Source: Streptomyces sp. DvalAA-14 (lineage in GTDB: Bacteria; Actinomycetota; Actinomycetes; Streptomycetales; Streptomycetaceae). From it: 39,648 bases of DNA. Of this stretch, positions 10,821 through 31,495 are shown one piece after another (position 1 is the first letter of the stretch; every line of letters starts with the position of its first letter). A program made the translations under genes and the position numbers. The stretch covers positions 1 to 39,648 of the forward strand of contig NZ_FMCH01000349.1 in assembly GCF_900091855.1 (NCBI RefSeq), written 5' to 3'. The notes below the pieces were generated by a model that saw only the letters and a program-made list of their open reading frames with translations, was not told where the DNA came from and did not search any database.

Positions 10821-11816
10821 GTGAACGACTCTTCCTGGGGCGCTTCGCCACGCGCCGGCCACGTGGTGGAACCTCCGCATACGGCGGGTTCCGCGACGGG
10901 GACCGGGGCCAGGAGGAAGACTCCTTCCATGCCGCCACCTCCGCCGCCCGCCACGCAGCCGCCGTCCGAGCAGCCGCAGCCCGGGCCGGCACCCGCCAAG
11001 AAGTCCGCGGGGCGCAATCTGCGGGCCGCGATAGGGGTCGGCGTCGGGCTCGGTGTGGTCATCATCGCCGCGCTCTTCATCGTCAAGGCCGTCTTCGTCG
11101 GCGTGGTGGTGGCCGCGGTGGTGGTCGGTGTCTGGGAGCTGACCTCCCGGCTCGCCGAACGCAAGGGCATCCGGGCGCCGTTGATCCCGCTCGCGGTGGG
11201 CGGGGTGGCCATGGTCGTGGCCGGCTACGTGTGGGGCGCGGACGGCGCGTGGGTGTCGACGGCGCTCACCGCGCTGGCCGTCCTGGTCTGGCGGATGACG
11301 CGGCCCGCCGAGGACTACCTCCGGGACGTCACCGCGGGCGTCTTCACGGTCTTCTATGTGCCCTTCCTGGCCACCTTTGTGGTGATGATGCTGGCCGCCG
11401 ACGACGGCCCGCGCCGGGTGCTGGTCTTCCTCCTGCTCACCGTCGTCTCCGACACCGGTGCCTACGCGGTCGGCTGGCGCTTCGGCAGCCACCGCCTCGC
11501 CCCGCGCATCAGCCCCGGCAAGACCCGCGAGGGCCTGGCCGGCGCGATGTCCTTCGCGATGATCGCCGGCGCCCTGCTCATGCAGTTCTTCATCGACGAC
11601 GGCCGCTGGTGGCAGGGCATCCTGCTCGGCCTGGCCGCCGCCACCAGCGCCACCCTGGGCGACCTCGGCGAATCCATGATCAAGCGCGACCTGGGCATCA
11701 AGGACATGGGCACCCTCCTCCCTGGCCACGGCGGCATCATGGACCGCCTGGACTCCCTGCTGCCCACCGCCCCGGTGGTCTGGCTCCTCCTCGTCCTGTT
11801 CGTCGGCCAGGGCTGA
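10821..11816 (+). CDS. cdsA: phosphatidate cytidylyltransferase
   Basis: A 331-residue integral membrane CDP-diglyceride synthase, which makes CDP-diacylglycerol for phospholipid synthesis. After a ~60-residue Pro-rich cytoplasmic leader come several hydrophobic helices (AAIGVGVGLGVVIIAALFIV, VLVFLLLTVVSDTGAYAVGW). The C-terminal CDP-DG synthase signature follows: SATLGDLGESMIKRDLGIKD and LLPGHGGIMDRLDSLL. The start is GTG 10821. This is the last host gene before the inserted element, and the downstream 11817-11993 gap shows no gene. Confidence 0.94.
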   Translation: MNDSSWGASPRAGHVVEPPHTAGSATGTGARRKTPSMPPPPPPATQPPSEQPQPGPAPAKKSAGRNLRAAIGVGVGLGVVIIAALFIVKAVFVGVVVAAVVVGVWELTSRLAERKGIRAPLIPLAVGGVAMVVAGYVWGADGAWVSTALTALAVLVWRMTRPAEDYLRDVTAGVFTVFYVPFLATFVVMMLAADDGPRRVLVFLLLTVVSDTGAYAVGWRFGSHRLAPRISPGKTREGLAGAMSFAMIAGALLMQFFIDDGRWWQGILLGLAAATSATLGDLGESMIKRDLGIKDMGTLLPGHGGIMDRLDSLLPTAPVVWLLLVLFVGQG

Positions 11817-11993
11817 CCACCCACCTCCCGATCACGAAGCCGGCCCTCGCGCAGGAGCCGCGCAGGGACGCCGGACGCCGCAAGCGCGAACGCGGCGGTC
11901 AGCTGTCCGACGAGGGCCGGTTGGGCATGCTTTGTCGGGAGCGAGCAGCCGTCGCGGCGGGCGGCCGGGTTCTCATCCGCTCGGGTCGTCCCC

Positions 11994-12106
11994 GGGCCGT
12001 CAGACGACCGCCCCGGACCGCCACGTCCGCCACGAGCCGCCGGAGACGACCGTCACCCCGCGAACGGGCGGGCCGGTGCGCCGGGTCTGAGAGACTGGGA
12101 GGCATC
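11994..12106 (+). promoter_or_regulatory. native rlmN upstream region, now separated from rlmN
   Basis: About 113 bp ending at the displaced rlmN start codon align with 28998-29102 on the other side of the element. Shared blocks include GGGCCGTCAG, GGACCGCCACG, GAGACGACCGTCACC and a 21-bp identical block at 12078-12098. It carries the ribosome site GGGAGG (12097-12102), four bases before ATG 12107. By position this is the host copy: it should have preceded rlmN before insertion and now drives only a 12-codon minigene. The exact -35/-10 was not identified. Confidence 0.7.
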
Positions 12107-12126
12107 ATGCCTGTGCCCGGAGAACT
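12101..12126 (+). repeat. attachment core, left junction (attL)
   Basis: This 26-bp sequence (it begins GGCATCATGCC and ends GGAGAACT) is identical to 29097-29122 and contains the start codon and first six codons of rlmN. Identity stops at A versus T on the right and at GA versus AC on the left, after which a further 21-bp identical block extends outward. Strand exchange must have occurred within the 26 bp. Confidence 0.9.
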
Positions 12127-12145
12127 AGTGTCGGGCGAGCGCTGA
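12107..12145 (+). pseudogene. displaced 5' end of rlmN (12-codon minigene)
   Basis: The native rlmN start, codons M-P-V-P-G-E-L, is continued by element sequence for five more codons (V-S-G-E-R) and then stops at TGA 12143-12145. It retains the native ribosome site. The product would be a 12-residue peptide (MPVPGELVSGER) with no known role. Its last base is the first base of a strong terminator stem. It is probably just a by-product of integration, but the arrangement would efficiently close down the stranded host promoter. Confidence 0.75.
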
Positions 12146-12187
12146 GAAGCCCTCTACCAGCAGCTTTGTGGCTGGTAGAGGGCTTCT
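12145..12187 (+). terminator. strong terminator just inside attL
   Basis: A perfect 17-bp inverted repeat (AGAAGCCCTCTACCAGC / GCTGGTAGAGGGCTTCT) with a nine-base loop is followed by GTTTA. It begins at the stop codon of the 12-codon minigene and lies 18 bp inside the core. It should stop host transcription from entering the element, and being symmetrical it may also stop leftward int transcripts from leaving. Confidence 0.85.
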
Positions 12188-12239
12188 GTTTAGGCGGGGG
12201 GCCGCCACCGGGCCGTCGCGTGGCGAGAGCACCCGGGGA

Positions 12240-12674: not shown

Positions 12675-13904
12675 CTACGATTTGACGAATACTCGATCGA
12701 TCGCGCGGCGGGCCCGTTCCCGGCTGCTCGGCATGAGGTGTGCGTACACCCGGAGGGTCAGTGCGGGGTCCGCATGGCCCAGGTACTCGCTCACAGCCTT
12801 GATGCTCTCTCCAGCGTCCAGCAACACCGACGCGTAGAAGTGCCTCAGCGCGTGCATGCCGTGCTCCCGCGCGGAGTCGTAGGGCTTGCCCAGCTCGGGT
12901 GTCGGGATGAGGCCAGCAGCGGCAAGCGCGGGCTTCCACTCCTGGATGTTGAAGTTACTGCGCCAGACGATCCCGCCGGCCTGGTTGGAGAAGTACAACC
13001 GCTTGGTGACGAGCGGCCCGTCCGGCTTCTTCCACGGGAGCGTGACCGCGACCGGCTTGCAGTCGTCCACGTGCGAGCGGATCGCGGCGGCGACGGACCC
13101 GGGCAAGGGCACGTCCCGTTCCTTGTTGCACTTCGGCGGGGCGAACACGGCCTTGCCACGGATGAGCTTCACTTGCCGCACCACGTGTAAGGTCCCCGCC
13201 TCGAAATCGATCGCGTCGTCTTCGGCGAGACCGATGATCTCGCCTTGCCGCAGTCCGCAACCGCCGGCCACGTCCACCATCGCCCGGTACCGCTGGGGGA
13301 GGGCCGCCCGCACCGCGAGCACCTGTTCCGGAAGCCAGGGCACCAAGCGAGCCGCGCTGATGGCGGGCGGTCGCACGGACTTGGCGTTGCACGGATTCCG
13401 GTTCAACAGTCCGTCGTCCACCGCTGCGGAGAGAACAGCGCGGACGTTGCCGTAGATGATCCGCGCGTATCCGCCGGACATCGGATCGTCTTCCAGCGCC
13501 TTGACGAGCGCCTGAATGTGGGACGGCCGGAACGAGTCGAGCGGACGGGTGCCGATCCGCGGCAGGACGTGGAGCCTGAGGCGAGTCTCCACGGCGACCT
13601 GAGTTGTCAGGTCGGTCGTCTGGGAGTTCAGCCAGCGCAGGGTGAACTGACGGAATGTCGTACGGCCGGCCTTGGGATCGACGTAGGTACCGCGTGTCAT
13701 GTCCGCGTTGGTCTGGGCTAGCCACTCTTCGGCGAGGCGCCGTTGCCGGTCCGGAAAGGACTTGCTCAGCTCCGTTCCGTCCGGACCGATGTACCGGGCC
13801 CGGTAGCGCATGCCGGTGCCGTAGCGGTCAGTTTTGACGCGGATGGTCTTGCCGTCGGGATTCTGTTCGGTCTTGTACCAGCGGTCTTGGATGTGGCCTG
13901 CCAT
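12675..13904 (-). CDS. int: tyrosine recombinase (element integrase)
   Basis: A 409-residue tyrosine integrase starting at ATG 13904 behind AAGGAG. It has an N-terminal arm-binding-type region (about residues 1-65), a SAM-like core-binding domain (about 85-165) and a catalytic domain. The catalytic residues are visible: R219 in GGCGLRQGE, H351 and R354 in HALRHFYAS, H377 in LGHADP and nucleophile Y387 in LRVYAHL. A Lys in the beta hairpin is likely around KCNKERDVPL. It should catalyse recombination between the element attP and the rlmN 5' end. The gene ends about 550 bp from attL; 12580-12674 holds a 7-bp dyad (12561-12586) and no gene. Confidence 0.95.
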   Translation of the reverse strand: MAGHIQDRWYKTEQNPDGKTIRVKTDRYGTGMRYRARYIGPDGTELSKSFPDRQRRLAEEWLAQTNADMTRGTYVDPKAGRTTFRQFTLRWLNSQTTDLTTQVAVETRLRLHVLPRIGTRPLDSFRPSHIQALVKALEDDPMSGGYARIIYGNVRAVLSAAVDDGLLNRNPCNAKSVRPPAISAARLVPWLPEQVLAVRAALPQRYRAMVDVAGGCGLRQGEIIGLAEDDAIDFEAGTLHVVRQVKLIRGKAVFAPPKCNKERDVPLPGSVAAAIRSHVDDCKPVAVTLPWKKPDGPLVTKRLYFSNQAGGIVWRSNFNIQEWKPALAAAGLIPTPELGKPYDSAREHGMHALRHFYASVLLDAGESIKAVSEYLGHADPALTLRVYAHLMPSSRERARRAIDRVFVKS

Positions 13905-13930
13905 GGTGGGCGACTCCTTGAGGCATGGCG

Positions 13931-13967
13931 GCGGCCGGTGGCGAGCGGGCTGCTCGCCACCGGCCGC
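13931..13967 (-). terminator. xis-int intergenic hairpin
   Basis: A perfect 16-bp stem (GCGGCCGGTGGCGAGC / GCTCGCCACCGGCCGC) with a five-base loop sits between xis and the int ribosome site. Its position suggests attenuation of int relative to xis. No T-run follows on the minus strand, so control by RNA structure is as likely as simple termination. Confidence 0.65.
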
Positions 13968-13992
13968 GGTGAACTCGGTTTGGATGTAGTGG

Positions 13993-14184
13993 CTAAGCGG
14001 CTTCGCTCTGCCCGTTGATCCACGCGCGTACGGCTTCGGGGTCGTAGCGCAGGTGTTTTCCGGCGCGGAATCCGGGTGGGCCGGTGCGCTTCTTACGCCA
14101 GGCGTAGACGGTTTCGACGCTCGGCAGGCGCAGGATCTCGGCGAGTTCTTCGGGGGTGAGGAAGTGGTCGGGGAGTACAGGCAC
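13993..14184 (-). CDS. xis: excisionase / MerR-type HTH protein
   Basis: A 63-residue protein consisting of a single winged HTH of the excisionase/HTH_17 type: FLTPEELAEILRLPSVETVY, then AWRKKRTGPPGFRAGKHLRY and DPEAVRAWI. In AICEs such a gene directly precedes int and encodes Xis, which biases the integrase toward excision. Its 3' end is 88 bp from int with a hairpin in between. A direct role in excision is inferred from position and fold. Confidence 0.9.
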   Translation of the reverse strand: MPVLPDHFLTPEELAEILRLPSVETVYAWRKKRTGPPGFRAGKHLRYDPEAVRAWINGQSEAA

Positions 14185-14256
14185 GCCGGCGGCTCCTGAG
14201 GACTCTTCGGGTGGGATTTTGCTTCGGGACTCGCGTGTGTCCGAGGTGTGGATTTC

Positions 14257-14462
14257 TGCGTCATTGCGTCATCCGCGTCATTCAGGCTTCTGACCTGCGG
14301 TTTCGGGTGACGCAGCGGCCGAGGGGTGCGTCATCGCAGCGTCATGGGCTGCGTCATCGGGTGACGCAGATGACGCAGGATGACGCAGGGGCCGGTGTCT
14401 GCGTCATGGCTGTTGCAGCAGGTCAGGTGCCGTTTTCCGGCTTGCATGACGCAGGTGACGCA
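14257..14462. repeat. iteron-like cluster of TGACGCA repeats (candidate origin)
   Basis: Eleven exact copies of TGACGCA or its complement lie in 206 bp, starting at 14257, 14265, 14308, 14327, 14350, 14362, 14371, 14381, 14400, 14447 and 14456, with near-copies at 14274 and 14338. Three copies at 14362-14387 are spaced nine to ten bases apart in the same orientation. The cluster lies between the replication genes and xis-int, in a 457-bp gap otherwise without genes. Such density points to a specific binding site, most simply the double-stranded replication origin bound by the replication protein, alternatively an operator controlling xis. Confidence 0.8.
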
Positions 14463-14641: not shown

Positions 14642-16117
14642 TCAGAACGCGGGCTGTTGCCGGTGTGGGGGTGGTGCGGCGGGGCGGGTGATTTCGAGGT
14701 AGCGGCCTTCGCTGGTGCGGCCGGTGTCGATGATGACGCCGCGGGCGGCAAGGGTGGGCTGAAGGCGCTTGAGGCGGTCGGAGAGGACTTTGCCGGTAGT
14801 GGGCCAGCCTTTGGGCAGGGGGCGCAGTTCGTCGCCGCTGTAGAGGCGGCTGAGGCCGTGCAGCCACTCGGTGGAGGTCATCCGCTGAGCCGCGCCCGGG
14901 GTGATGGTCTCGGCATGGCGCAGGACGGTCTGCGCGAGGAGATCACCCTCGATCACGTCGTCGTTGAGGTCGTCCAGACTGGCCCGGTAGGCGCCCAGCG
15001 CTCCGAGGCCGGTGGCCGCGTCGAGCTGCGCGCACAGGTGGGCGAAGTCCGCCATCCGCAGATCGGTGGGAGTCTCCACCGCAACGCTGCGGACCTTGAC
15101 CGTCAGGTCCAGCAGAGACCCGAGAACGACAGGCAGCACCTCCGCGTACTCCGCCCACAACTCCGCCTCAGTGCGCCGCACGCGGGGCCGCTCCAAACGC
15201 AGCGGCAGCAGCCGTTCGGCAAGGTCCGGGCGGATGACTCCCACATCGATACCCGTCAGGAGCAGCGGCCGGCGGTAGCGGGCGCGGAACACGTCCCCGT
15301 CGGTGAACAGGGCCCGCTTGACGCTCTCCGCGCCGGTCACGATGCAGCACATCGCGTCGGACAGGTCCGGGGTCATGTGGGACAGGTTGTCGAGAGCCGT
15401 TACCCATCCGGCCGCCACCGCCGCGATCAGGTTCTCCTCATCCTTCGGTGCCCGGCGCAGGTCTCCGCTCATGCCCTCGATGATCCGGATGAGCATCCGC
15501 CCCCCGGTGGACTTCCCCGCCCCCTGCGGCCCGGTGAGGAACGGCGCCGGCACCGGCACGGACGGCCCGAGGCAGCCGATCAGCCACGCCAGGGCCAGGC
15601 ACTCGGTCTCCGCGGTGGCGAAGTTGCACAACCTGAGCAGCAGGTCGATGCCCTTGCCGTCGGTGTCCTTGACGGGCAGGGGGAGTTCCCCGGTGAGCTG
15701 GGTTCGCCGCCAGCACACTTCCCGTGGGTCGGGGATGAGGATGTCCCACCCGGCGGGGTGGATACGCACGGACCGTCCGTCGTCCCGGCCCAGGTCCAGC
15801 CACGTCGCCCCGTCGAATCCGGGGGCCACCCGGATGTTGACCGGCTGCACGTCCTCGGTCAGCGCGAGCGCTTCAATCAGGTCCAACGCCTCTTTCAGCG
15901 CAGTGCCGTTGAACACACCGCGCCCGTCCCTGAACAGCCCGACCATGAGTTCCTGGCGGTGGCTGCCCGTCGTGCCCTGCGAGCGGATCGGCCGGGCCAC
16001 CGGGTGGCTGTTCTTCTGCGCGTAGACGGTGCCCTCCGCGGTGCGGAAGTACCGAAAGTGCTCTTGCGCGTAGTCGGTAATGACCTCGCGGCCGGGGGTC
16101 TTCTCGTCCTCGGACAC
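14642..16117 (-). CDS. replication-associated ATPase/helicase-like protein
   Basis: A 491-residue protein read from GTG 16117, two bases after the primase-polymerase stop; an in-frame ATG at 16153 would overlap it. Walker A GPQGAGKST lies near residues 196-204 and a Walker B-like WVTALDNLSH follows. The region between (RAPKDEENLIAAVAAGWVTA) and the later LLTGIDVGVIRPDLAERLLP resemble the ATPase half of phage and plasmid primase-helicases. With the upstream primase-polymerase it likely forms the replication initiator of the element, a two-gene version of the RepPP type. The C-terminal ~120 residues may bind DNA (LSDRLKRLQPTLAARGV, winged-helix-like). Confidence 0.8.
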   Translation of the reverse strand: MSEDEKTPGREVITDYAQEHFRYFRTAEGTVYAQKNSHPVARPIRSQGTTGSHRQELMVGLFRDGRGVFNGTALKEALDLIEALALTEDVQPVNIRVAPGFDGATWLDLGRDDGRSVRIHPAGWDILIPDPREVCWRRTQLTGELPLPVKDTDGKGIDLLLRLCNFATAETECLALAWLIGCLGPSVPVPAPFLTGPQGAGKSTGGRMLIRIIEGMSGDLRRAPKDEENLIAAVAAGWVTALDNLSHMTPDLSDAMCCIVTGAESVKRALFTDGDVFRARYRRPLLLTGIDVGVIRPDLAERLLPLRLERPRVRRTEAELWAEYAEVLPVVLGSLLDLTVKVRSVAVETPTDLRMADFAHLCAQLDAATGLGALGAYRASLDDLNDDVIEGDLLAQTVLRHAETITPGAAQRMTSTEWLHGLSRLYSGDELRPLPKGWPTTGKVLSDRLKRLQPTLAARGVIIDTGRTSEGRYLEITRPAAPPPHRQQPAF

Positions 16118-16119
16118 GG

Positions 16120-16968
16120 CTACACCCCCAACCGGGCGCGGGCGTTGGTCCACGCGTCGGTGCAGTGCCGGGCCGATTCCCCTTTGGCCTGTGCGGCGAT
16201 GAACAGCCGCGCGATGTGGGCTTCACCGAGGCAGCCGCACCGGCCATGGGCGGACAGCACGGCAAGGAACGTCCGGTAGACGGTGGCGTGCACACCCTCG
16301 GACGCGGCGGTGATGCGCTGTTCGGCCATGGCAATGCCGCGGTCCAGATACGCGGGGGTGCGGTGACGGCACTGCCCACCCTCGGCCGGCGCGGGCACGG
16401 TGACGGTCGTCGGCCGGACAGCGCTGGGTTCCTTCACGGCCAGCGTGCGCACGGCCTCCGGCAGGACCGTCACCGTGCCGGTGCCGGGGCCGAGCCAACG
16501 GGCGTAGGACATCCAGGATTTGATGTCCATGCCGGGGCGGATCGCGTTGGAAGAGCGCATGCCGCCGCGGTAGATCCAATGCTCGCCGCGGGTGGTGGGC
16601 ACGGTGCGGGTTGCGGGGAGGTTGGCGCGGGCCCAGGTGATGGCCGCGGTGTTGTCGAGGTCCACCACGGTCAGCCCGGCGCCACCGGGGTGGTAGGCGA
16701 CCGCCACGGCCTGCCGCCATGCCAGGGCCCAAGGCGGGGAGGTGATCTCGGTTGGGTCGGTGGTGGCGGCGGCCCATCCGTGGCAGGGCGCCGGGCACTC
16801 GCAGGGGCCCGCGGTGAGCATGTTCGGCCGGCCGCCGCACGCGCTCCGAGTGCAGGCGGGGCAGTTCCCGAACGGCATCTTCCCTGCGCGCAGGGGCAGT
16901 ACAGGGACGCCGGAGGCGGCGAGCGCGAGAGCGGTGGCCAGCGGTTCGGTGGGGACGGGTTGGGGCAT
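16120..16968 (-). CDS. bifunctional DNA primase/polymerase (prim-pol)
   Basis: A 282-residue protein from ATG 16968 behind GGAG. The N-terminal half matches the prim-pol family: LALAASGVPVLPLRAGKMP, a Cys cluster (CPACTRSACGG, then CECPAPCHGW) that may bind zinc, the catalytic VVDLDN acid pair, and the later TTRGEHWIYRG and DIKSWMSYARWLGPGT blocks. Such proteins prime and extend DNA during plasmid replication. The C-terminal part (AYLDRGIAMAEQRITAAS to the end) is helical and of the kind that follows prim-pol domains in actinomycete elements. It probably acts with the ATPase encoded two bases downstream. Confidence 0.85.
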   Translation of the reverse strand: MPQPVPTEPLATALALAASGVPVLPLRAGKMPFGNCPACTRSACGGRPNMLTAGPCECPAPCHGWAAATTDPTEITSPPWALAWRQAVAVAYHPGGAGLTVVDLDNTAAITWARANLPATRTVPTTRGEHWIYRGGMRSSNAIRPGMDIKSWMSYARWLGPGTGTVTVLPEAVRTLAVKEPSAVRPTTVTVPAPAEGGQCRHRTPAYLDRGIAMAEQRITAASEGVHATVYRTFLAVLSAHGRCGCLGEAHIARLFIAAQAKGESARHCTDAWTNARARLGV

Positions 16969-17068
16969 GCTGGTGGTCTCCTGTTCCTTGCCGTGGAGCG
17001 GAGAAACCGGGACGGCCGCGTGTCTTTGGCGAGAGGTGCGGTCGTCCCGGGCGGGGTAGGCGCCGGGC

Positions 17069-17263
17069 ATGAGACCTCGGCGGTGGTGGGTGATGGTGGG
17101 TGCGTGGGGTGTCGAGGTGGGGTTGTTCACCGCGTGGAGCCGCTGGGGGGACCATCACGGCTGGGGTGAATCCGCGGTGACCGGCGTCACCATGGCCACG
17201 TTCGTGTTGATCGTGGTGTTGGTGTGCCGGTGGGTAGCGCAATGGGCCCGTCCGGGGCGGTGA
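17069..17263 (+). CDS. small membrane protein, opposite strand
   Basis: A 64-residue frame beginning MRPRRWWVMVGAWGVEVGL with two hydrophobic segments, the second VTGVTMATFVLIVVLVCRWV. It fills most of the gap between the prim-pol gene and the next minus-strand gene. Its third-position GC is about 85-90 percent by hand count, consistent with coding. It is the only rightward candidate in the left half of the element and no strong ribosome site was seen, so it remains tentative. Confidence 0.45.
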   Translation: MRPRRWWVMVGAWGVEVGLFTAWSRWGDHHGWGESAVTGVTMATFVLIVVLVCRWVAQWARPGR

Positions 17264-18564: not shown

Positions 18565-20799
18565 CTAGCCCGCGTCCCGGTTTCCGTCACGCTCCGCAAC
18601 AACGTCGGTGATGCGGGCCCGCTCGACGCCCTTGCGGTTGGCGCCCTTGCCGGCGTCGGTCTTGCCCCACACCTGAACCGTGGCCACCCCGAACGGCTTC
18701 AGCGCGGCGGCCAGCCCTTCGGGGTCCCAGCCGCCGTAGACGTCGGGGCGCAGGTCGGCCAGGCGGGCGGTGACTGTCTCGGACCACACCTTGGGCTCTT
18801 CGGCCGGGACCACCGCGAGGATGTCCCGCAGCAGGTCGTACCCGGCCGACTCGGACGCCTCGAAGGCTTCCCCGAGCGCGTGCCCGGACAGCGTCCCGGC
18901 GGTCTCGCGGAGCGTGCGGGCGCGCAGGCCGATCGCTTCCGCGGTGGGTGCGTCGACGTAGGCGGAAGAGACGATCCGTGCGTCGGCGCCTTCACCCACG
19001 AAGTAGTGGATGCCCTTGTCCTTCCAGGAGAACATCGTCGCCCGGATGCCCCGCTTGTACGACGACGTGCCCAGGACCATGTCGTTTTCCAACTGGCCCA
19101 TGACCTTCAGGCAGAACCGGGCCGACGCGTTCGCGGAAATGCCGGTGGGCAGGGCTTTGGCGTCCGGGCGCTGGGTGGCCAGCAGCAGCACGATGCCGGT
19201 GGCGGGGCCGCGCTTGACCAGGTCGGTGCAGATCTCTTCGAACTCCGCCCCGTGCTTGGGGTGCTCGAACCACACCTGGCACTCGTCCACCCCGATCACG
19301 ATCGGGTGCAACCCCAGCTTCGGCCGGCTCGCCAACTCGCTGGTCACCTTGGATTCGGGGCAGATGTCCCGGGGCAGGGACCGGATCATCTTCGCCCGCC
19401 GCCGCAACTCGCCGCGGACTTCCCGCAGGTCCGCGAGCGCGTATTCGATGTCCTCGTCATCGTCGCCGGCTCGGTGCCGGTGGGAGACGCGCTCGCCGAC
19501 TGGATCGAGGTCGCCGGTGCCTTTTAGGTCGTAGGTGTGCAGCTCAGCGCGCACATCGAGTGCGGCGATGAGCAGCAGCAGCCGCAGCAGGAACGTCTTG
19601 CCCATGCGGGGGATGGCGCCGATGACGGCCGCGATGTACATCAGGGTGATCTCCACCCACCGGCCACGCTGGTCGGTGCCGAACGCCACGGGCTTGAACA
19701 GGTCCACCGAACCGGACTTCAGCAGCGGCCACGCTGGCTTGCGGGCGGTGGACATGTCCTGATCCCCCACCCACATCACCAGCCGCCCGGTGTGCTCATC
19801 CGGCACCGCTTCCGGCCACACGCACCCCAGCGGTCGGCGCAGACCGGACGCGAGCCGGTCACGGCGCTCGATCACGTCGGTGACGGTCACGCCGTAGGGG
19901 AGATCGCCTTCGGCGCGCCATCCGGGCCCGTCGCGGGTGATGGGGGCGGTGAACGCGAAGCCGTCTCTGCCCTTGCCCTGCGCCTGGTTGATCGCGGGAA
20001 TGCCGAGTGCTCCCAGGGCGCGCAGCACGATGTCACTGGTCAGCTTGGGGGCGCTGGGTAGTTCCACCGCGCGGGTGACGACCGGCGCGTCCGCCCGGCT
20101 GCCGGCTACTCCCATGGCGAGCACGATGGTGCCGACCGCGACGGCTTGCAGCCAGCCCGGCGCCAGCACGTACATCGCCAGCGCCGACCCGACTCCGATG
20201 AAGGCGGCGAGCACCGCGACCAGGGTGCGCAGCCGCACCCGGTTGTCGCGCTGCCGCGACAGCTTCAGATACTCGCCCGCATCCTCGCGGCGGACCGCCG
20301 CGAGGCGGACCGGCTCACCCTCCCGATCGGCCAGCCACCGCACCGAGCCGCCCACGAACTTCGCGGCGCCGCGCGGCGACTGCAACGCCAGGCGGCCGGC
20401 GTAGTAGGGGGAGCGCAGGCCGTGATAGGCGGCCAGGTGCGCGTAATGACCGGCCGTCCACCGGGCGGCCGTCTTGAACTCGGCTGCGGAGCGCAGCCAC
20501 GGCGGCAGCGCCGCCCGACGCCTGGCACCCATCAACCGGCCCAGGTAACCGGGCCCGGCCGCAACCGGACCGTCCACCAACACCCGAGCGGTCGGGTCGC
20601 CCGACCCATCATCCGACGCGTCGCCCGACTCCAACGGGCCGGAGTCGCCCGACGCGTCGCCCGACTCGGAACGAGCTGATCGCGCCTTGCCGAGATCGAC
20701 CACGTTGGTGTCCGGGTCTGCCGACCGGTCGGGGCCGAAGTCGGCTGTCAGGTCGGCTTCGAGCCGGTTGAAGAGTTCGTTCTCTTCCTCGTGATTCAC
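18565..20799 (-). CDS. traB: TraB-type FtsK/SpoIIIE DNA translocase
   Basis: A 744-residue transfer protein read from GTG 20799 behind GAAGGAA. The first ~70 residues are acidic with repeated SGDAS motifs. Two membrane helices lie at about 192-235 (TLVAVLAAFIGVGSALAMYV, LQAVAVGTIVLAMGVAG). The motor domain has Walker A GAIPRMGKT near 394-402, Walker B VIGVDE near 501-506 and the conserved LLLATQRPDAKALPTGISAN. TraB proteins move double-stranded DNA between Streptomyces hyphae and are sufficient for conjugal transfer. The C-terminus (about 690-744) has the winged-helix-like segment expected to read the clt recognition repeats. Confidence 0.92.
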   Translation of the reverse strand: MNHEEENELFNRLEADLTADFGPDRSADPDTNVVDLGKARSARSESGDASGDSGPLESGDASDDGSGDPTARVLVDGPVAAGPGYLGRLMGARRRAALPPWLRSAAEFKTAARWTAGHYAHLAAYHGLRSPYYAGRLALQSPRGAAKFVGGSVRWLADREGEPVRLAAVRREDAGEYLKLSRQRDNRVRLRTLVAVLAAFIGVGSALAMYVLAPGWLQAVAVGTIVLAMGVAGSRADAPVVTRAVELPSAPKLTSDIVLRALGALGIPAINQAQGKGRDGFAFTAPITRDGPGWRAEGDLPYGVTVTDVIERRDRLASGLRRPLGCVWPEAVPDEHTGRLVMWVGDQDMSTARKPAWPLLKSGSVDLFKPVAFGTDQRGRWVEITLMYIAAVIGAIPRMGKTFLLRLLLLIAALDVRAELHTYDLKGTGDLDPVGERVSHRHRAGDDDEDIEYALADLREVRGELRRRAKMIRSLPRDICPESKVTSELASRPKLGLHPIVIGVDECQVWFEHPKHGAEFEEICTDLVKRGPATGIVLLLATQRPDAKALPTGISANASARFCLKVMGQLENDMVLGTSSYKRGIRATMFSWKDKGIHYFVGEGADARIVSSAYVDAPTAEAIGLRARTLRETAGTLSGHALGEAFEASESAGYDLLRDILAVVPAEEPKVWSETVTARLADLRPDVYGGWDPEGLAAALKPFGVATVQVWGKTDAGKGANRKGVERARITDVVAERDGNRDAG

Positions 20800-20829
20800 T
20801 GCTGGTTCCTTCCAGAAATGGAATGGTGA

Positions 20830-20870
20830 GGGGCCCGGCCGTCGCTTTGGTCGGTGGAGGGCCGGGCCCC
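20830..20870 (-). terminator. hairpin upstream of traB
   Basis: A perfect 11-bp stem (GGGGCCCGGCC / GGCCGGGCCCC) with a 19-base loop sits between the stop of the zinc-binding gene (20874) and the traB start (20799). Only about 30 bp remain before traB, too little for an independent promoter plus leader, so the hairpin may attenuate rather than fully end transcription into traB. Confidence 0.65.
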
Positions 20871-20873
20871 GGG

Positions 20874-21209
20874 TCAGAAGTCGAACAGGCTGCACTGATC
20901 CGTCGAGGGGATATGGGTGACCGCGCACTGCGCGGTACGGCGGGCGGCGGTGAAGCAGCCCGGGCACCAGGCGCGCAGTTCAGCGGCGGGAAGTGCCGCG
21001 GCGGCCAGGTCGCCGATGGTCGGGTCGGCGGGTGCGGCGATGAGGCGGACCGTGCCAACGCGGGTGGCGGCGTAGCCGTCGTGGAGGCGACCGCAGCGGC
21101 CTTCGGTCCTGCGGTGGGACTGCCCGCACTGCCCGGTGCAGTGGCAGCGCCCGCCGGCCGCGTCCATCACCGCGCGGAACAGGCCGGCGCCGACGATCGG
21201 GGTGCTCAT
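20874..21209 (-). CDS. Cys/His-rich putative zinc-binding protein
   Basis: A 111-residue protein from ATG 21209, overlapping the methyltransferase stop by four bases (ATGA). The first half has a dense metal-ligand cluster (RCHCTGQCGQSHRRTEGRCG) and the second a CPGC pair (AWCPGCFTAARRTAQC). The pattern resembles HNH-like zinc proteins found in actinomycete elements, but a complete HNH motif is not visible. The function is unknown. It is the last gene of the overlapped operon before the hairpin and traB. Confidence 0.72.
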   Translation of the reverse strand: MSTPIVGAGLFRAVMDAAGGRCHCTGQCGQSHRRTEGRCGRLHDGYAATRVGTVRLIAAPADPTIGDLAAAALPAAELRAWCPGCFTAARRTAQCAVTHIPSTDQCSLFDF

Positions 21210-22177
21210 GCCGCGGCCCGCCGTGCGGGCGCGGGCTCGTCGAGGACGAGGCCGGCGCGCGTGGTGAGAACGCGTATGGCTGCCTCGGCCTGGCGGGGTA
21301 CGACACCGTTGCCCAGTGCCTTGAGTTGCTGGGCGCGGGACAGCCCGGGAACGGCGGTGACGTGGCCCTCGGGCAGGCCCATCAACCACTCCACGAGGAT
21401 CGGGCTCAGGCGTCCCAGAGCGTCGGTTGCGCCGGGCGCGGGGCGTCCGGTGACGTGTTCCCATCGGCGGACGGCCGGGGCGAAGGGACCCCAGTCGGTG
21501 GGCTCAGCACCCACTCCGCGAGGTTCGCCTTGCCCTCCCTCACCCGGCGCTCCGTGCCCGGGGTGCGGGTGACCGCTCCCTTCGTGCCGTCCGTCGCGCG
21601 GGGGGTCGGCAGCAGGCCCACGGTGGTGCGCAAGTCCGCTCCCCCCTGCCCGTGCGGGCCCGCCCCATTGGTGTCCGAGGTCCGCGGCGTCGGCAGCAAC
21701 GGCAAGGATGATGAGTCGCCGTCGCTGGTGGGCAGCGCCGACATCCGACGCGCGTACAAGACACCACTCCGCATCGAACCCGATGCGGGCAAGGTCCCGC
21801 AGGACTTGATCAAATCCAATCCGAAGGTGGTTCGCGACGTTCTCAAATACCGCGAGTTGGGGTCGTAGAACCCCAAGGGCGGTGGCAATGAAGGGCCAGA
21901 TGTGCCGTTCATCGGCGGTTCCTCTCCGCTTGCCGGCGACGCTGAAGGGCTGGCAGGGATAACCGCCGCACAGCACGTCCACCGGCGGCACGTCGCGCCA
22001 GTCCAGCGCGGTGATGTCCCCGAGGTTCGGCACCCCGGGATGGTGGTGGGCCAGGATCGCGGCGGCGCCGGGGTCGTTGTCCGCGACCCAGGCCAGCGAC
22101 CCGCCGATGACGGCCTGGACGGCCATGTCCAGACCGCCGTAACCGGTGCACAGCGACCCGATCCGCAGCCCGCTCAC
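21206..22177 (-). CDS. C5-cytosine DNA methyltransferase
   Basis: A 323-residue enzyme from GTG 22177, with GTGA overlap with the GGDEF gene. Motifs in order: SAM-binding GSLCTGYGGLD (I), catalytic GGYPCQPFSVAG (IV), FENV (VI), HQRRRLIIL (VIII), and C-terminal LKALGNGVVP (X) after VEWLMGLP. The N-terminal and C-terminal parts are convincing, but the middle (about residues 165-235, where the target-recognition domain should be) is low-complexity Gly/His/Ala sequence, and a different frame is better coding there (see 21406-21912). The enzyme may protect the element from restriction during transfer or mark host DNA. Confidence 0.82.
   Translation of the reverse strand: MSGLRIGSLCTGYGGLDMAVQAVIGGSLAWVADNDPGAAAILAHHHPGVPNLGDITALDWRDVPPVDVLCGGYPCQPFSVAGKRRGTADERHIWPFIATALGVLRPQLAVFENVANHLRIGFDQVLRDLARIGFDAEWCLVRASDVGAAHQRRRLIILAVAADAADLGHQWGGPARAGGSGLAHHRGPAADPPRDGRHEGSGHPHPGHGAPGEGGQGEPRGVGAEPTDWGPFAPAVRRWEHVTGRPAPGATDALGRLSPILVEWLMGLPEGHVTAVPGLSRAQQLKALGNGVVPRQAEAAIRVLTTRAGLVLDEPAPARRAAA
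21406..21912 (-). CDS. overlapping frame resembling a methyltransferase target-recognition region
   Basis: This 168-codon frame lies inside the methyltransferase gene on the same strand. It contains SCGTLPASGSMRSGVLYARR, then the repeated LLPTPRTSDTNGAG and LLPTPRATDGTKG, which I recall from the central part of phage and element methyltransferases. By hand count over 21541-21780 this frame has about 89 percent GC at third positions against about 69 percent for the methyltransferase frame, so it is or recently was translated. It may be a true overlapping gene, a segment reached by frameshifting, or the trace of paired frameshift mutations. Confidence 0.45.
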   Translation of the reverse strand: MNGTSGPSLPPPLGFYDPNSRYLRTSRTTFGLDLIKSCGTLPASGSMRSGVLYARRMSALPTSDGDSSSLPLLPTPRTSDTNGAGPHGQGGADLRTTVGLLPTPRATDGTKGAVTRTPGTERRVREGKANLAEWVLSPPTGVPSPRPSADGNTSPDAPRPAQPTLWDA

Positions 22178-22809
22178 GCCGCAACCCCGCCCGACGTGCC
22201 CCGGCGTCCCGCCCGACGACCGGCCAGCGTGGCGAACAGCGAGCCGAGTCCCGCCCGCCGCACCCCCGCGCGGCCCCGTTTGGCCGCGTACATCGCTTCA
22301 TCCGCGCGGCGCAGCAGGTCCGGCAGGGTCTCGCCGGGGAAGTCTGCGGCGCGGGCCCAGCCCAGGGAAACGGTGGTGTGCACGGCCGGGTCGAGGCCGG
22401 CGGCGGGTCGGGCGAGGACCGAGCCGAGTACGGCGAGCATGTCGCCGGCCATGCCGTGCCGGTCGATGACCACCGCGGCGAACTCGTCACCACCCAACCG
22501 GCCCGCCACCCCATCGCGGGCGGTGAAGTGCGCCAGCCGCTCAGCGGTCGCCTTCAGCAGCGCGTCGCCGGCGGCGTGCCCGTGGGTGTCGTTGACCCGT
22601 TTGAAGCGGTCCACGTCGGCGAGCACCACCACCGCCTGCGGATCGCGCAGCAGCAAGGTGGCGCGGCGGGTGAAGCCGTCCCGGGTCCACAACCCGGTCA
22701 GCGGATCACGCCGGGCGGTGTCCAGCCGGCGGCGCAGCCACCACAGGTGTCCCGACCATCCGGCGGCGAGCGGGGCGCCCGCGGCGAGGGTGGTTAACAG
22801 GGTGCTCAT
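22174..22809 (-). CDS. GGDEF domain protein (putative diguanylate cyclase)
   Basis: A 211-residue protein from ATG 22809. A short hydrophobic N-terminus (LTTLAAGAPLAAGWSGHLWW) may anchor it to the membrane. The GGDEF domain is complete: RDPLTGLWTRDGF, LADVDRFKRVNDTHGHAAGD, the signature GGDEF at about 106-110 in GRLGGDEFAAVV, and LRRADEAMYAAKRGRAG. No RxxD inhibitory site is present at the expected position upstream of GGDEF, so product inhibition may be absent. It should make c-di-GMP. It overlaps both neighbours by four bases, so it is made together with the DUF2637 and methyltransferase proteins. Confidence 0.88.
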   Translation of the reverse strand: MSTLLTTLAAGAPLAAGWSGHLWWLRRRLDTARRDPLTGLWTRDGFTRRATLLLRDPQAVVVLADVDRFKRVNDTHGHAAGDALLKATAERLAHFTARDGVAGRLGGDEFAAVVIDRHGMAGDMLAVLGSVLARPAAGLDPAVHTTVSLGWARAADFPGETLPDLLRRADEAMYAAKRGRAGVRRAGLGSLFATLAGRRAGRRGTSGGVAA

Positions 22810-23153
22810 GCCACTGCCGCCGTGCCGAGCAGGGGGGCGGCGGGTGTGCGGGGCAGGTAGCCGACGACTTCCACCGGCACCCCGGCGTAGCGGGTGAGGG
22901 TGATCAGCCACGACGTGCCGCCGTGCGACCCGGCGTCGACCGAGTCGGGGTCGATGGCCAGCGCGGCCCGCCATGCCTCGAACGCCCGGATGTCGTCGTG
23001 CAGGGAGACCCGCAGACCTTCGGTGATCTCGTCGGGGGTGATGATGGTCCTGATCTCGATCGTGGCGTCCGGCAGGGTCGCGAACTGGCTGACGAGCGCG
23101 TGCAGCGCGCCGGCCGCGGCGAGCTTGCGCGCAAGGGTTCCCGGGGTGCTCAT
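22806..23153 (-). CDS. conserved hypothetical protein
   Basis: A 115-residue soluble protein from ATG 23153, joined to both neighbours by ATGA overlaps. It begins MSTPGTLARKLAAAGALHAL and contains TIEIRTIITPDEITEGLRVS and HGGTSWLITLTRYAGVPVEV. It looks like an alpha/beta protein with no catalytic motif that I recognise. Its place immediately before the GGDEF gene suggests a shared function, possibly a partner, but that is only inference. Confidence 0.68.
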   Translation of the reverse strand: MSTPGTLARKLAAAGALHALVSQFATLPDATIEIRTIITPDEITEGLRVSLHDDIRAFEAWRAALAIDPDSVDAGSHGGTSWLITLTRYAGVPVEVVGYLPRTPAAPLLGTAAVA

Positions 23154-24154
23154 GCCGCTTCTCCTTCGGCATCCGTGGCGGACTGCGGGGTGTCCAGCGG
23201 CCACACCGGCCCGTTGGCGCGCTCACCGCGCAGGGTGTCGCGCAGGGTGCGGGCCTGCCCCGCTCCGCAGCGCAAAGCGAGGCGCAGCCCCTCGGCGGTG
23301 ATCTTGCTATCGGGCCACTGCGCGGTCAGGGCCCGGGCCTCGGTCAGCAGGTCCGCCAGCGAACGGCGCCCGGCCGGCCGCTTCGCAGCAGAACGCGCCG
23401 GCCGACGCGGCGCCTTCGGCTTCACCCCGGCGGCGGGAACCTCCGGCGCGGCGGGTGCGGTCACCGGCTCACCGGCCGGAACCGGCTCGGTGCCGGTGGG
23501 GGTGAGTTCACCGAGCTTGAGCAGCACTCGCGTGCGCCGGTCGGTCTGCGACCGCCAACGCCACCCGTGCGCCTCGCGCAGGTCCGCGCGGGCCAACTGC
23601 CGCTCCCGCTCACGGCTCAGCGCGTCGGTGTAGGAGGTGATCTCCCACAGCGTCATCCGCCGCCACAGCGCGAACGTCGTCAGCGGGGCGAGCACCCACC
23701 GGATACGGCGGATCTTCTCCATCCGCCGGCCGGTCACCGCGCCGATGCGCGCCGCATAGACGTGCGCCACGACCTCGGACAGCACCACCCACAGCAGCGG
23801 CATCGTGCCGTGCGCCACCTTCGCCGACACCGAATGACCGGCGGAAACGTTGAGCCAGCACGTCACCGAGGTCAAGAACCACGGCACGAACCGCACCCAG
23901 CTAAGCGCCATGTCCATACGGATCAACAGCAGGTTGACGATGGTGAACACCGGGATGGCCAGGTCGATGGCCAGCGGGAGCATCTGCGGCGTGGCGAAAC
24001 CCCACCGGGCGCCGGCTGCGGAGACCGTGTCGAACGACAGGGCCAAGCCGACCCCGCCGACACCGACCCCCAGCACCCCGGCCGTGGCGAGCAGCAGGCG
24101 CTCACCCCCGGACAGCGGCGGAAGCGGCGGCCGTACCGTCTGCGGGGCGCTCAT
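23150..24154 (-). CDS. DUF2637 membrane protein with C-terminal DNA-binding-like region (Spd-type)
   Basis: A 334-residue protein from ATG 24154. The N-terminal ~130 residues form four membrane helices of the DUF2637 type (LLLATAGVLGVGVGGVGLAL, SFDTVSAAGARWGFATPQML, PLAIDLAIPVFTIVNLLLI, LLWVVLSEVVAHVY). A charged stretch follows (RERERQLARADLREAHGW), then a Pro/Ala-rich linker and a helix-turn-helix-like tail (AEGLRLALRCGAGQARTLRD). DUF2637 proteins are standard members of Streptomyces transfer regions, thought to act in plasmid spread. ATGA overlaps tie it to the genes on both sides. Confidence 0.85.
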   Translation of the reverse strand: MSAPQTVRPPLPPLSGGERLLLATAGVLGVGVGGVGLALSFDTVSAAGARWGFATPQMLPLAIDLAIPVFTIVNLLLIRMDMALSWVRFVPWFLTSVTCWLNVSAGHSVSAKVAHGTMPLLWVVLSEVVAHVYAARIGAVTGRRMEKIRRIRWVLAPLTTFALWRRMTLWEITSYTDALSRERERQLARADLREAHGWRWRSQTDRRTRVLLKLGELTPTGTEPVPAGEPVTAPAAPEVPAAGVKPKAPRRPARSAAKRPAGRRSLADLLTEARALTAQWPDSKITAEGLRLALRCGAGQARTLRDTLRGERANGPVWPLDTPQSATDAEGEAA

Positions 24155-28883: not shown

Positions 28884-28997
28884 AATGAGTCCCAATCGGG
28901 ATACGGCACTGGGCCAAGGTGCAAGATAGGGCGTGCTCGATCCTAGAGCCTTGGGCCAGGCCGCCGTGGGAGAAAAGCGGGAAGTCGGGCCGTCCCT

Positions 28998-29102
28998 GGG
29001 CCGTCAGGCGACGGCCCGGGACCGCCACGGACCACCAGAGACGACCGTCACCCGGCCGTCCGGACTGGCCATGGCGCCGGGTCTGAGAGACTGGACGGCA
29101 TC
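28998..29102 (+). promoter_or_regulatory. element-borne copy of the rlmN upstream region
   Basis: These 105 bp resemble the native rlmN upstream region at 11994-12106, with shared blocks and small gaps (roughly three quarters identical by eye), and end directly at the rlmN ATG. Because strand exchange was inside the 26-bp core, this DNA came with the element. It now supplies the promoter region and ribosome site of rlmN. The ribosome site reads GGACGG here (29093-29098) where the native copy has GGGAGG. An 8-bp hairpin (28998-29017) is formed by GGGCCGTC/GACGGCCC. Confidence 0.75.
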
Positions 29103-29122
29103 ATGCCTGTGCCCGGAGAACT
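29097..29122 (+). repeat. attachment core, right junction (attR)
   Basis: This is the second copy of the 26-bp core, identical to 12101-12126. It includes the functional rlmN start codon ATG 29103 and codons 1-6; host sequence resumes at codon 7 (L-T-F). Confidence 0.9.
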
Positions 29123-30239
29123 TACTTTCGCTGTGCCGCGCGGAGCCAAGAAGCCGCCGCGGCACCTCGCCGACCTTTCGCCCGCGGAGCGGAAGGAGGC
29201 GGTGGCCGCGCTCGGGGAGAAGCCGTTCCGGGCCAAGCAGCTGTCGCAGCACTACTTCGCCCGGTACGCGGACGATCCGGCGGCGTGGACGGACATCCCG
29301 GCCGCGTCGCGGGGGAAGCTGGCCGAGGACCTGCTGCCGGAGCTGATGACGGTGGTCCGGCACGCCTCGTGCGACGACGGCGACACCCGCAAGACGCTGT
29401 GGCGGCTGTTCGACGGGACGCTCGTCGAATCGGTGCTGATGCGCTACCCGGACCGCGTGACGATGTGCATCTCCTCGCAGGCCGGCTGCGGGATGAACTG
29501 CCCGTTCTGCGCCACCGGCCAGGCCGGCCTGGACCGGAACCTGTCGACGGCGGAGATCGTGCACCAGATCGTGGCGGGCATGCGCTCCCTGCGCGACGGC
29601 GAGGTGCCCGGGAGCGCCTCCCGGGCCGCCGGCTCCGAGGCGGGCCCCGCCCGGCTGTCGAACATCGTCTTCATGGGCATGGGCGAACCGCTGGCGAACT
29701 ACAACCGCGTGGTCGGCGCCATCCGGCGCCTCACCGACCCCGAGCCGGACGGCCTCGGCCTGTCCCAGCGCGGCATCACCGTGTCCACGGTGGGCCTGGT
29801 CCCGGCGATGAACCGGTTCGCCGACGAGGGCTTCAAGTGCCGCCTGGCGGTGTCGCTGCACGCTCCCGACGACGAGCTGCGCGACACCCTGGTACCGGTC
29901 AACACCCGGTGGAAGGTCCGCGAGGTGCTGGACGCCGCCTGGCGGTACTCCGACCTGTCCGGCCGCCGGATCTCCATCGAGTACGCCCTGATCCGCGACA
30001 TCAACGACCAGGCATGGCGGGCCGACCGGCTGGGCCGGATGCTGAAGAGCCACCGGGTGCACGTCAACCTGATCCCGCTCAACCCCACCCCCGGCTCCCG
30101 GTGGACGGCGTCCCGGCCCGAGGACGAGCGGGCGTTCGTCGCCGCGCTGGAGGCGCACGGCGTGCCTGTGACCGTGCGGGACACCCGGGGCCAGGAGATC
30201 GACGGGGCCTGCGGTCAGCTGGCGGCGTCCGAACGCTGA
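29103..30239 (+). CDS. rlmN: 23S rRNA (adenine2503-C2) methyltransferase RlmN
   Basis: A 378-residue radical SAM enzyme that methylates C2 of A2503 in 23S rRNA (and A37 in some tRNAs). The 4Fe-4S motif CGMNCPFC (C129, C133, C136) is in [21 protein letters not shown]-like context, and [34 protein letters not shown] and [14 protein letters not shown] follow as in the family. The start at ATG 29103 lies in the element attachment core, so the first six codons are shared with the displaced copy at 12107. The coding frame is intact, but its ribosome site and upstream region now come from the element. Confidence 0.96.
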
Positions 30240-30297
30240 GCTGCCGCCGGGCAGCGGGCGACGCCCTGCTACCGTGCAGGCATATAAATGAACATTC

Positions 30298-30390
30298 CGA
30301 CAGGGGAGCGCCTGCGACGGCGCTGAGAGTGCGGCCCCCGAGGCCGCAGACCCTCCAACCTGATCCGGGTCATACCGGCGTAGGGAGTCA
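30298..30390 (+). promoter_or_regulatory. TPP riboswitch (THI element)
   Basis: The leader of thiB contains the conserved TPP-riboswitch blocks in order: AGGGGAGC, GGCGCTGAGAGTGCGG, GCAGACCCTCCAACCTGATC, CGGGTCATACCGGCGTAGGGAG. The last block ends just before the thiB start, so the switch probably hides the ribosome site when thiamine pyrophosphate is plentiful. A TATAAA at 30283-30288 is positioned as a -10 for a start near 30295, though no good -35 accompanies it. Confidence 0.93.
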
Positions 30391-30394
30391 GCAC

Positions 30395-31495
30395 ATGAAG
30401 TCCGTCCGTCGGCGTGTCATCGGCACGCTCGTCCTGGCCACCGCGGGAGCCACCGTGCTGGCCGCGTGCGGCAGCAGCTCGGATTCCGGCAGCAAGGGCG
30501 GGAGCGGCGCGGCGGCGTCCAAGACCGTCACCCTCGTCAGTCACGACTCCTTCGCGGCGTCCAAGCCGGTCCTCGCGGAATTCACCAAGGAGACCGGCTA
30601 CACCGTCAAGGTGCTGCGCGGCGGTGACGCCGGCGCCGCCGTGAACCAGGCGATCCTCACCAAGGACCACCCGCGCGGCGACGTCTTCTTCGGCGTCGAC
30701 AACACCCTGCTGTCCCGCGCCCTGGACAACGGCCTGTTCGACCCGTACACGGCCAAGGACCTCGACCAGGTGTCCTCCGACGTCCAGTTGGACGCCGCGC
30801 GGCACCGCGTCACTCCCATCGACTCCGGCGACGTGTGCGTCAACTACGACCGGGCCTACTTCACCGCGCACAAGCTCAGCCCCCCGCAGACCTTCGCCGA
30901 CCTGGTCAAGCCGCAGTACAAGAACCTGCTGGTCACCGAGAACGTCAGCACCTCCTCCCCGGGCCTGGCCTTCATGCTCGGCAGCGCCGCCACCTTCGGC
31001 GACAGCGGCTGGCAGTCGTACTGGAAGCAGCTCAAGAGCAACGGCGTCCAGGTCGTCGACAGCTGGGAGCAGGCCTACGACCAGAGCTTCTCCGGCTCGG
31101 GCGCGGGCAAGAAGGCCGGGGGCGACCGGCCGCTGGTCGTCTCCTACGCCTCCAGCCCGCCCGCCGAGGTGGTCGGCGTCAGCCCGGAGCCCGCGCAGTC
31201 GCCGGTCGGGGTCTCCACCGGCACCTGCTTCCGGCAGATCGAGTTCGCCGGGCTGCTGCACGGCGCGAAGAACACCGCGGGCGGCAAGGCACTGATCGAC
31301 TTCATGATCAGCAAGGTGTTCCAGGAGGACATGCCGCTGCAGATGTACGTGGACCCGGTGCGCAAGGGCGCCACCGAGCCCGCGGTGTTCGTCAAGTACG
31401 GGGCGAAGATCGACCACCCGACGACGCTGGCGCCCGACAAGATCGCGGCCGTGCGGGACGACTGGGTGAAGGCATGGACGTCGATCGTCCTGTGA
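30395..31495 (+). CDS. thiB: thiamine-type ABC transporter substrate-binding lipoprotein
   Basis: A 366-residue exported lipoprotein: signal peptide VIGTLVLATAGATVLAACGS with lipobox LAAC (Cys near residue 25). The mature part resembles ThiB/TbpA and iron-type binding proteins (KTVTLVSHDSFAASKPVLAE, GDVFFGVDNTLLSRALDNGL, VSTSSPGLAFMLGSAATFG, SYASSPPAEVV). Control by a TPP riboswitch and linkage to the fused permease and ATPase support thiamine, or a thiamine phosphate or precursor, as substrate. The stop is overlapped by the permease start. Confidence 0.92.
   Translation: MKSVRRRVIGTLVLATAGATVLAACGSSSDSGSKGGSGAAASKTVTLVSHDSFAASKPVLAEFTKETGYTVKVLRGGDAGAAVNQAILTKDHPRGDVFFGVDNTLLSRALDNGLFDPYTAKDLDQVSSDVQLDAARHRVTPIDSGDVCVNYDRAYFTAHKLSPPQTFADLVKPQYKNLLVTENVSTSSPGLAFMLGSAATFGDSGWQSYWKQLKSNGVQVVDSWEQAYDQSFSGSGAGKKAGGDRPLVVSYASSPPAEVVGVSPEPAQSPVGVSTGTCFRQIEFAGLLHGAKNTAGGKALIDFMISKVFQEDMPLQMYVDPVRKGATEPAVFVKYGAKIDHPTTLAPDKIAAVRDDWVKAWTSIVL

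Follow-up and report, generated by a model that had tools for sequence, protein, structure and literature searches.

An AICE at rlmN in Streptomyces that probably supplies the promoter region, start codon and first three codons of its target gene

The comparison of left and right element ends makes it very probable that an AICE of Streptomyces sp. DvalAA-14, by exchanging strands within codons 4-6 of rlmN, replaces the promoter region, the ATG and codons 1-3 of this gene with its own. In the window, that is, the whole stretch of 39,648 bp analysed here, about 17 kb of AICE-like element hold apart cdsA and rlmN. The former (10821-11816, forward strand; Pfam CTP_transf_1 5e-64) belongs to the host and lies ahead of rlmN when the site is empty. 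The latter (29103-30239, forward strand) is a 378-amino-acid open frame with a TIGR00048 match of 6e-94, above the cut-off, whose first three codons appear to be element-borne.

Strand exchange at the start of rlmN

The original prediction described identical 26-bp cores with rlmN codons 1-6 and, outward from them, homologous but diverged DNA. Sequence identity bears out the first of these: 12101-12126 and 29097-29122 (both forward strand) are the same 26 bp and contain ATGCCTGTGCCCGGAGAACT, which corresponds to rlmN codons 1-6 plus two nucleotides. The left stretch would be the attL core, with displaced rlmN codons 1-6. The diverged homology was also recovered, with its outer limit at 11981 and 28985 rather than at 11994 and 28998, since 11981-12126 and 28985-29122 are 82% identical (E ~1e-33). 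Divergence between the copies is uneven. The inner parts (12078-12126 and 29074-29122) have only two mismatches over 49 bp, and the looser outer segment (11981-12058 and 28985-29053) contains the repeat GGGCCGTCCCTGGGCCGTC. The sequence directly 5' of the ATG is GGGAGGCATC in the left copy and GGACGGCATC in the right one. A search of the window's own genome (669 contigs, 7.9 Mb, E <= 0.001) with 11950-12200 returned the two copies and one inverted self-match, a hairpin discussed below; with two places only in this genome, a dispersed host repeat is ruled out. Downstream of rlmN we also observed a TPP riboswitch (30292-30403; RF00059, 71 bits, above the gathering score).

Left and right copies were compared in 39 pairs at rlmN, namely the window and 38 relatives. 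The integrase relatives, taken from named genomes, are the best 80 of more, and the rlmN site is occupied by 38 of these 80 (L172 is the same record as that of G007); G026, G028 and G007 are included among the pairs. The rlmN starts were taken from the same genomes as the relatives, rlmN being present in all 26 genomes searched, and tblastn confirmed the right starts in 39/39 pairs. The search pattern used for the pairs fixes part of the core, and its outcome was cross-checked by a loose search: a left copy was present in every pair, identical to the first choice in 33, with the other six also recovered. For 27 of the 39 pairs (26 plus G007) the right side was retrieved on its own, and its source could be a second element in tandem. 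Furthermore, the pairs are related by kinship, so that the counts that follow are not independent.

From +9 to +16, counted from the A of the ATG, all 39 pairs agree. This stretch, CCCGGAGA in codons 4-6, is 8 bp long and the longest of its kind. Beyond it, agreement is found in 38 of 39 pairs at +17, in all at +18, in 36 at +19 and in seven at +20; in seven pairs the identical block, CCCGGAGAACT, is exactly 11 nt long. Codons 1-3 differ within the pair in ten cases, six of which are changes between Lys/Asn and Ala at codon 3, and one of the ten (L165) has a left copy that is not an rlmN start. In the window the minimal region of strand exchange, on the forward strand, would correspond to 29112-29119 in the right copy and to 12116-12123 in the left one. 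Judged from comparison rather than from cleavage mapping, codons 4-6 of rlmN are the most likely place of the exchange, which the 39 pairs would thus put within the target's 5' coding sequence, as in elements that replace 5' ends. Because the exchange would fall there, the upstream part of the rlmN-joined copy can be read as element-borne, and there is strong sequence support for its promoter region, start codon and codons 1-3 having arrived with the element. With rlmN open from 29103, the element would provide an in-frame start together with the 5' codons that differ in ten of the 39 pairs. What is restored in rlmN is a 5' end, not a 3' end, just as had been proposed at the outset.

Distances among 38 of the pairs provide additional clues. 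Once the host (rlmN) distance is removed, right upstream distances track integrase distances (partial r 0.26, p 0.0005), a modest correlation, and left upstream distances do not (partial r 0.01, p 0.40). A weak host signal is found on both sides (left upstream 0.12, p 0.018; right upstream 0.15, p 0.010). The earlier claim of an exchange within the core, with the right copy brought in by the element, is in agreement with the 39 pairs, with these partial correlations and with the side on which the arm motif described below is found.

The element, its relatives and their arms

As expected of an AICE, the element has a recombinase gene and flanking direct repeats (the 26-bp cores), together with a replication module of the Prim-Pol/Rep type. 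The tyrosine integrase (12675-14264; Pfam Phage_integrase 4.6e-16) possibly starts near 13913, many relatives aligning only from about residue 121. On the same reverse strand as the integrase gene are those of a replication-associated protein (14642-16153), a primase/polymerase (16120-17130; Pfam Prim-Pol 1.5e-9), an FtsK/TraB-like transfer protein (18565-20967) and a DUF2637 protein (23150-24154; Pfam 5.1e-16), the last of which we take to be SpdB-like. The replication-associated protein has no Pfam match, is conserved in sister elements and occupies the position of the YfjI-family gene of a circular plasmid. The transfer protein, also lacking a Pfam match, has homologues in sister elements and NCBIfam matches to EccCa (6.7e-6) and TraB (7.5e-5), both below cut-off. 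Further genes include GntR, HD, Nudix and others. A GGDEF-domain gene (22174-23226) adjoins the DUF2637 gene and is found as well in L114, L126 and the circular plasmid L240. Just upstream of int, 14295-14382 hold two 34-bp direct repeats, 74% alike and with TGACGCAG units, which are possible regulatory or recombination sites.

The inverted self-match mentioned above spans 43 bp (12145-12187) just inside the left end and forms a perfect 17-bp hairpin with a loop of 9. Stems of at least 9 bp within +20 to +110 occur at 33 of 39 left ends, on 12 of 39 right sides and in 82 of 390 shuffles. The hairpin was not listed by the terminator scan; it may represent a terminator or insulator against the displaced rlmN promoter, or a recombination feature.

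Sister elements are found in various targets: the 3' end of pmt (five elements), a gene that is presumably glnA-like, other sites and rlmN. The gene beside one of the pmt elements (L035:6655-8379) has a Pfam PMT match of 1.9e-19, the assignment of the other four being based on their common core sequence. A direct repeat of the target core lies beside the arms in 13 relatives with both ends; it is weak in L126 (22 nt, two mismatches) and L128 (14 nt), and in L118, which has two possible right ends, it is seen with just one of them. The pmt-targeting L114, L122, L123, L124, L127 and L240 carry about 70 bp of pmt-like sequence past the probable exchange point, apparently not needed for gene restoration, and in L240 part of this extra sequence is present twice in tandem.

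We placed 95 integrases in a tree, 40 of them labelled as rlmN-targeting, with the duplicates L172, L196 and L168 left out; the label 'other' of L146 and L152, both short contigs, is provisional. The rlmN label changes six times, compared with a shuffled mean of ~31. Thus, rlmN targeting is clustered but does not form one clade, and a single clade of rlmN-targeting integrases is ruled out. In this tree the integrase of the window falls together with those of two Kitasatospora elements at rlmN (support 96/88). A search for phage integrases of 60% identity or higher gave nothing (13 records), and none of the 11 plasmid matches is named pSLS. The integrases may belong to the pSLS subfamily, whose AICE tyrosine integrases are described as an exception to integration in tRNA genes (PMC3218068).

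Upstream of rlmN, the double motif GGGCCGTCnnTGGGCCGTC is present with at most one mismatch in all 39 element-side copies. It lies at -117 from the ATG in 32 and at -106, -116, -118, -138 or -139 in the rest. On the left side a single copy of 39, the window's own, has the motif at up to three mismatches (two mismatches, -124). The motif alone is unspecific, with 101 matches at up to one mismatch in 35 genomes versus 48 for the reversed control, and therefore the argument rests on its position. In the window's own genome the corresponding figures are two and seven, and the GGGCCGTCnnTGGGCCGTC of the right copy also occurs away from rlmN. Within the window the motif is found at up to two mismatches in three places, 11983, 12199 and 28987, all of them element ends. 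Of 20 fetched relatives with an integrase match (one only a fragment), 14 have the motif, in a single orientation, starting within ~60 bp of the 3' end of that match, and in many of these elements it is found again at the opposite end.

One sister element is on record as a circle, the plasmid NZ_CP107792.1 (18,451 bp), whose gene order resembles that of the window's element and whose integrase is 59% identical over 79% of the query. Here the motif, a pmt-like core and a motif with two mismatches fall within ~350 bp; the second arm is found ~1.9 kb from int, and another two-mismatch motif at the end of int. A candidate hairpin on the circular plasmid was dropped, its best stem being 9 bp with one mismatch.

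Because the motif marks sister elements in other genes as well as a circular plasmid, we read 28985-29050 (forward strand) as the proposed, element-borne P-arm of attP. It consists of the double motif GGGCCGTCCCTGGGCCGTC (28987-29005) followed by ACGACC-type sequence, and these outer ~65 bp look like the P-arm of this integrase family. The copy at 12199-12217 (forward strand), with two mismatches, lies between the left core and int, at a position comparable to that in relatives, and is the proposed P'-arm motif. The motif itself would be a putative integrase-binding site. Part of the proposed arm, GGAGACGACCGTCAC, is also present in the short cdsA-rlmN junction of G032, where it may be scar or host sequence, and arm and host-like DNA are thus not sharply separated. 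Away from rlmN, L034:6308-6414 (G010:C380) holds a copy of the window's arm (90% identity) that includes a promoter-like block, and no related integrase was found in 27,000 of that contig's 28,332 bases. The plasmid collection gave no covering match to the window's right copy.

Empty sites and the origin of the upstream copies

All 35 genus genomes searched have rlmN. In 23 of the 34 other than the window's own, cdsA and rlmN are adjacent, with a gap of 32-204 bp. In the other 11 there are 603 bp or more between the two genes, which in one of them, G007, are on different contigs. We take the short junction as the ancestral state, often interrupted. At up to three mismatches the motif occurs in five of the 11 interrupted genus sites and in one of the 23 uninterrupted ones (shuffles ~0.3%). 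The latter is the 161-bp cdsA-rlmN junction of G020 (L051), which has a perfect arm motif at -126 upstream of rlmN and is likely the scar of a lost element. In G032, the last 24 bp before the ATG match the left copy at 23 positions and the right copy at 21. The original prediction had named empty sites matching the right-hand copy as evidence against itself; neither the motif at one of 23 sites nor the greater closeness of G032 to the left copy amounts to such a refutation.

The left-hand upstream copy of the window (11981-12100, forward strand) contains an rlmN-like block (12086-12098) and a decayed arm motif with two mismatches (11983-12001). Next to it, 11848-11925 (reverse strand) is 77% identical over 78 nt to 16887-16964, a part of the element's prim-pol gene, and matches the primase-polymerase by tblastn (48% over 33 amino acids, E 0.002), which constitutes moderate evidence for a prim-pol gene remnant of an older element. 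Because the decayed arm motif adjoins this primase-polymerase-like remnant, the left copy is probably the attR scar of an earlier element and not pristine host DNA, a conclusion of moderate strength, and the former view of 11994-12096 as native host sequence becomes doubtful. Such accretion would imply that an older element between cdsA and the left copy was mostly deleted with its attR left in place, and that the present element entered that attR. In an alternative scenario, the likeness of left and right would stem from gene conversion between the ends instead of from an older element, and the unusual variant TCTGAGAGACTGG common to both sides is what this would predict. We regard it as rather unlikely, given that the left motif has decayed (two mismatches) and, at -124, is out of register, that the primase-like remnant lies beside it and that some of the arm sequence, along with TCTGAGACACTGG, is likewise present in the short junction of G032.

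The right copy continues into the putative element-borne rlmN 5' cassette (29074-29111, forward strand), composed of TCTGAGAGACTGG at 29082-29094, the proposed extended -10, the ATG at 29103 and codons 1-3. At up to two mismatches, a block TCTGCGACACTGG is found ~20 bases before the ATG in all 39 element-side copies, in 37 of 39 left-side copies and at 32 of 34 genus sites. The flanking positions are mostly freer, an exception being -35, which is G in 38 of 39 right copies, and the window departs from the common form by having TCTGAGAGACTGG in both copies. In a class-wide sample (118 genomes searched, 114 with rlmN, 29 loci examined) the block at the same threshold is present in eight of nine Streptomycetaceae and in two of 20 loci of other families (shuffles 0.07%). 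We read this conserved block as one of the extended -10 type, and it would be the candidate rlmN promoter. A sigma-70 consensus scan, which may miss actinomycete promoters, found none in either copy.

The block TCTGCGACACTGG might also have been kept as an extended core site of the integrase, in which case rlmN would be read from another element promoter, or poorly. Its location within 40 bp of the exchange and its conservation in both copies fit such a role. However, empty genus sites also have the block before rlmN, as do two of the 20 other-family loci in diverged form; a related integrase lies within the 1.5-kb flanks in none of the 29 loci, and sister elements in other genes have other cores. 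This makes a core-site function improbable.

Should the region have been captured from a related host, as initially suggested, the ~105 bp as a whole would be a host rlmN control region. The suggestion stands only for the ~49 bp of rlmN-like promoter and start, and is not supported for the outer, arm-like ~65 bp. The inner part is indeed rlmN-like: 32 of 34 genus sites have its block at up to two mismatches, other families show it weakly, and GGAGACGACCGTCAC of the arm segment recurs in the short junction of G032. Yet elements in pmt and in other genes, and the circular plasmid too, have ends that look like the outer ~65 bp, and the motif is absent, at up to three mismatches, from 22 of 23 uninterrupted host sites, so that capture of the entire region is very unlikely. 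The motif at elements in other genes and on the plasmid led us to reject the whole upstream block as host promoter.

Both window copies carry an arm-like motif and therefore the window by itself cannot decide against an exchange at the outer edge of the homology, with the right copy the host's and the left one the element's, but this is scarcely credible in view of the 39 pairs, where the motif is missing (at up to three mismatches) from the left copy in 38 and always present on the rlmN side, of the 8 bp common to all pairs, which fall in codons 4-6, and of the empty sites, where the motif (1/23) is not the rule.

Under the mechanism that we favor, exchange in codons 4-6, the tyrosine integrase of a Streptomycetaceae AICE would recombine within the 8 bp. 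The proposed attP would comprise, in order, the P-arm (double GGGCCGTC, usually 117 bp before the ATG), a copy of the rlmN -10, the ATG with codons 1-3, the crossover, the P'-arm and int. Integration would strand the old rlmN promoter and start beside cdsA (attL) and would leave the rest of rlmN fused to the element's promoter, its ATG and its codons 1-3 (attR), so that the gene could stay expressed. The swap of regulation at every integration that the original prediction envisaged would be a possible consequence. The rlmN-like block would be retained in the element because rlmN must stay expressed.

Known systems and wider meaning

AICE insertion into rlmN and promoter replacement at the 5' end of a target are each already in print. 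AICE03 of Streptomyces sp. RLB3-6 sits in rlmN between 11-nt direct repeats (PMC9513070). Like the window's element it is an AICE in this gene, and its repeats can be set beside the block of exactly 11 nt in seven of our pairs. That account deals with the site and an integrase swap, and the word 'promoter' is absent from its main text; an AICE in a phospholipid carrier-dependent glycosyltransferase gene is published there too. In the dusA islands, as described for IMEVchUSA3, the element gives its target a new 5' coding sequence and promoter, the supply of the promoter having been demonstrated with lacZ fusions (PMC4482086, PMC8409611). These islands resemble the window's element in inserting at the 5' end of an RNA-modification gene, but are other elements in other hosts, and they alter ~35 N-terminal residues as opposed to three codons at rlmN. 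The SXT ICE, as cited in PMC8409611 and PMC3715440, inserts at the 5' end of prfC and provides a new promoter and N-terminus; it is similar in its 5'-end replacement and differs in being another ICE class, with the release factor 3 gene as target. The SpyCI islands likewise control their target, mutL, through 5'-end insertion, but this normally silences mutL, with a rescue promoter in a decayed integrase gene (PMC3430984). A literature search on rlmN integration, by title and start of abstract and with subscription papers mostly outside its scope, found no promoter replacement at rlmN.

The arm spacing of -106, -117 or -138/-139 from the ATG in 37 of 39 rlmN copies leads us to a broader picture, which we put forward as tentative. 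One AICE integrase lineage may hold its docking arm constant, at a set distance from the exchange point and in phase with the helix, and swap only the target cassette. The rlmN cassette would then be a portable promoter and start, left behind when the element is lost, and the rlmN control region would have turned over repeatedly across Streptomycetaceae. If so, the left copy of the window and the junction of G020 would both be scars of lost elements. The arm motif, given an adjacent core and integrase, helps to delimit this AICE lineage. More generally, the case illustrates how an element can enter a conserved gene at its start and yet spare it, and it offers, for the single gene rlmN, dozens of natural promoter pairs from before and after insertion. 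RlmN methylates A2503 of 23S rRNA. Such pairs allow one to examine whether mobile elements merely tolerate this methylation or tune it, a matter that bears on translation accuracy and on drugs acting at the peptidyl-transferase centre.
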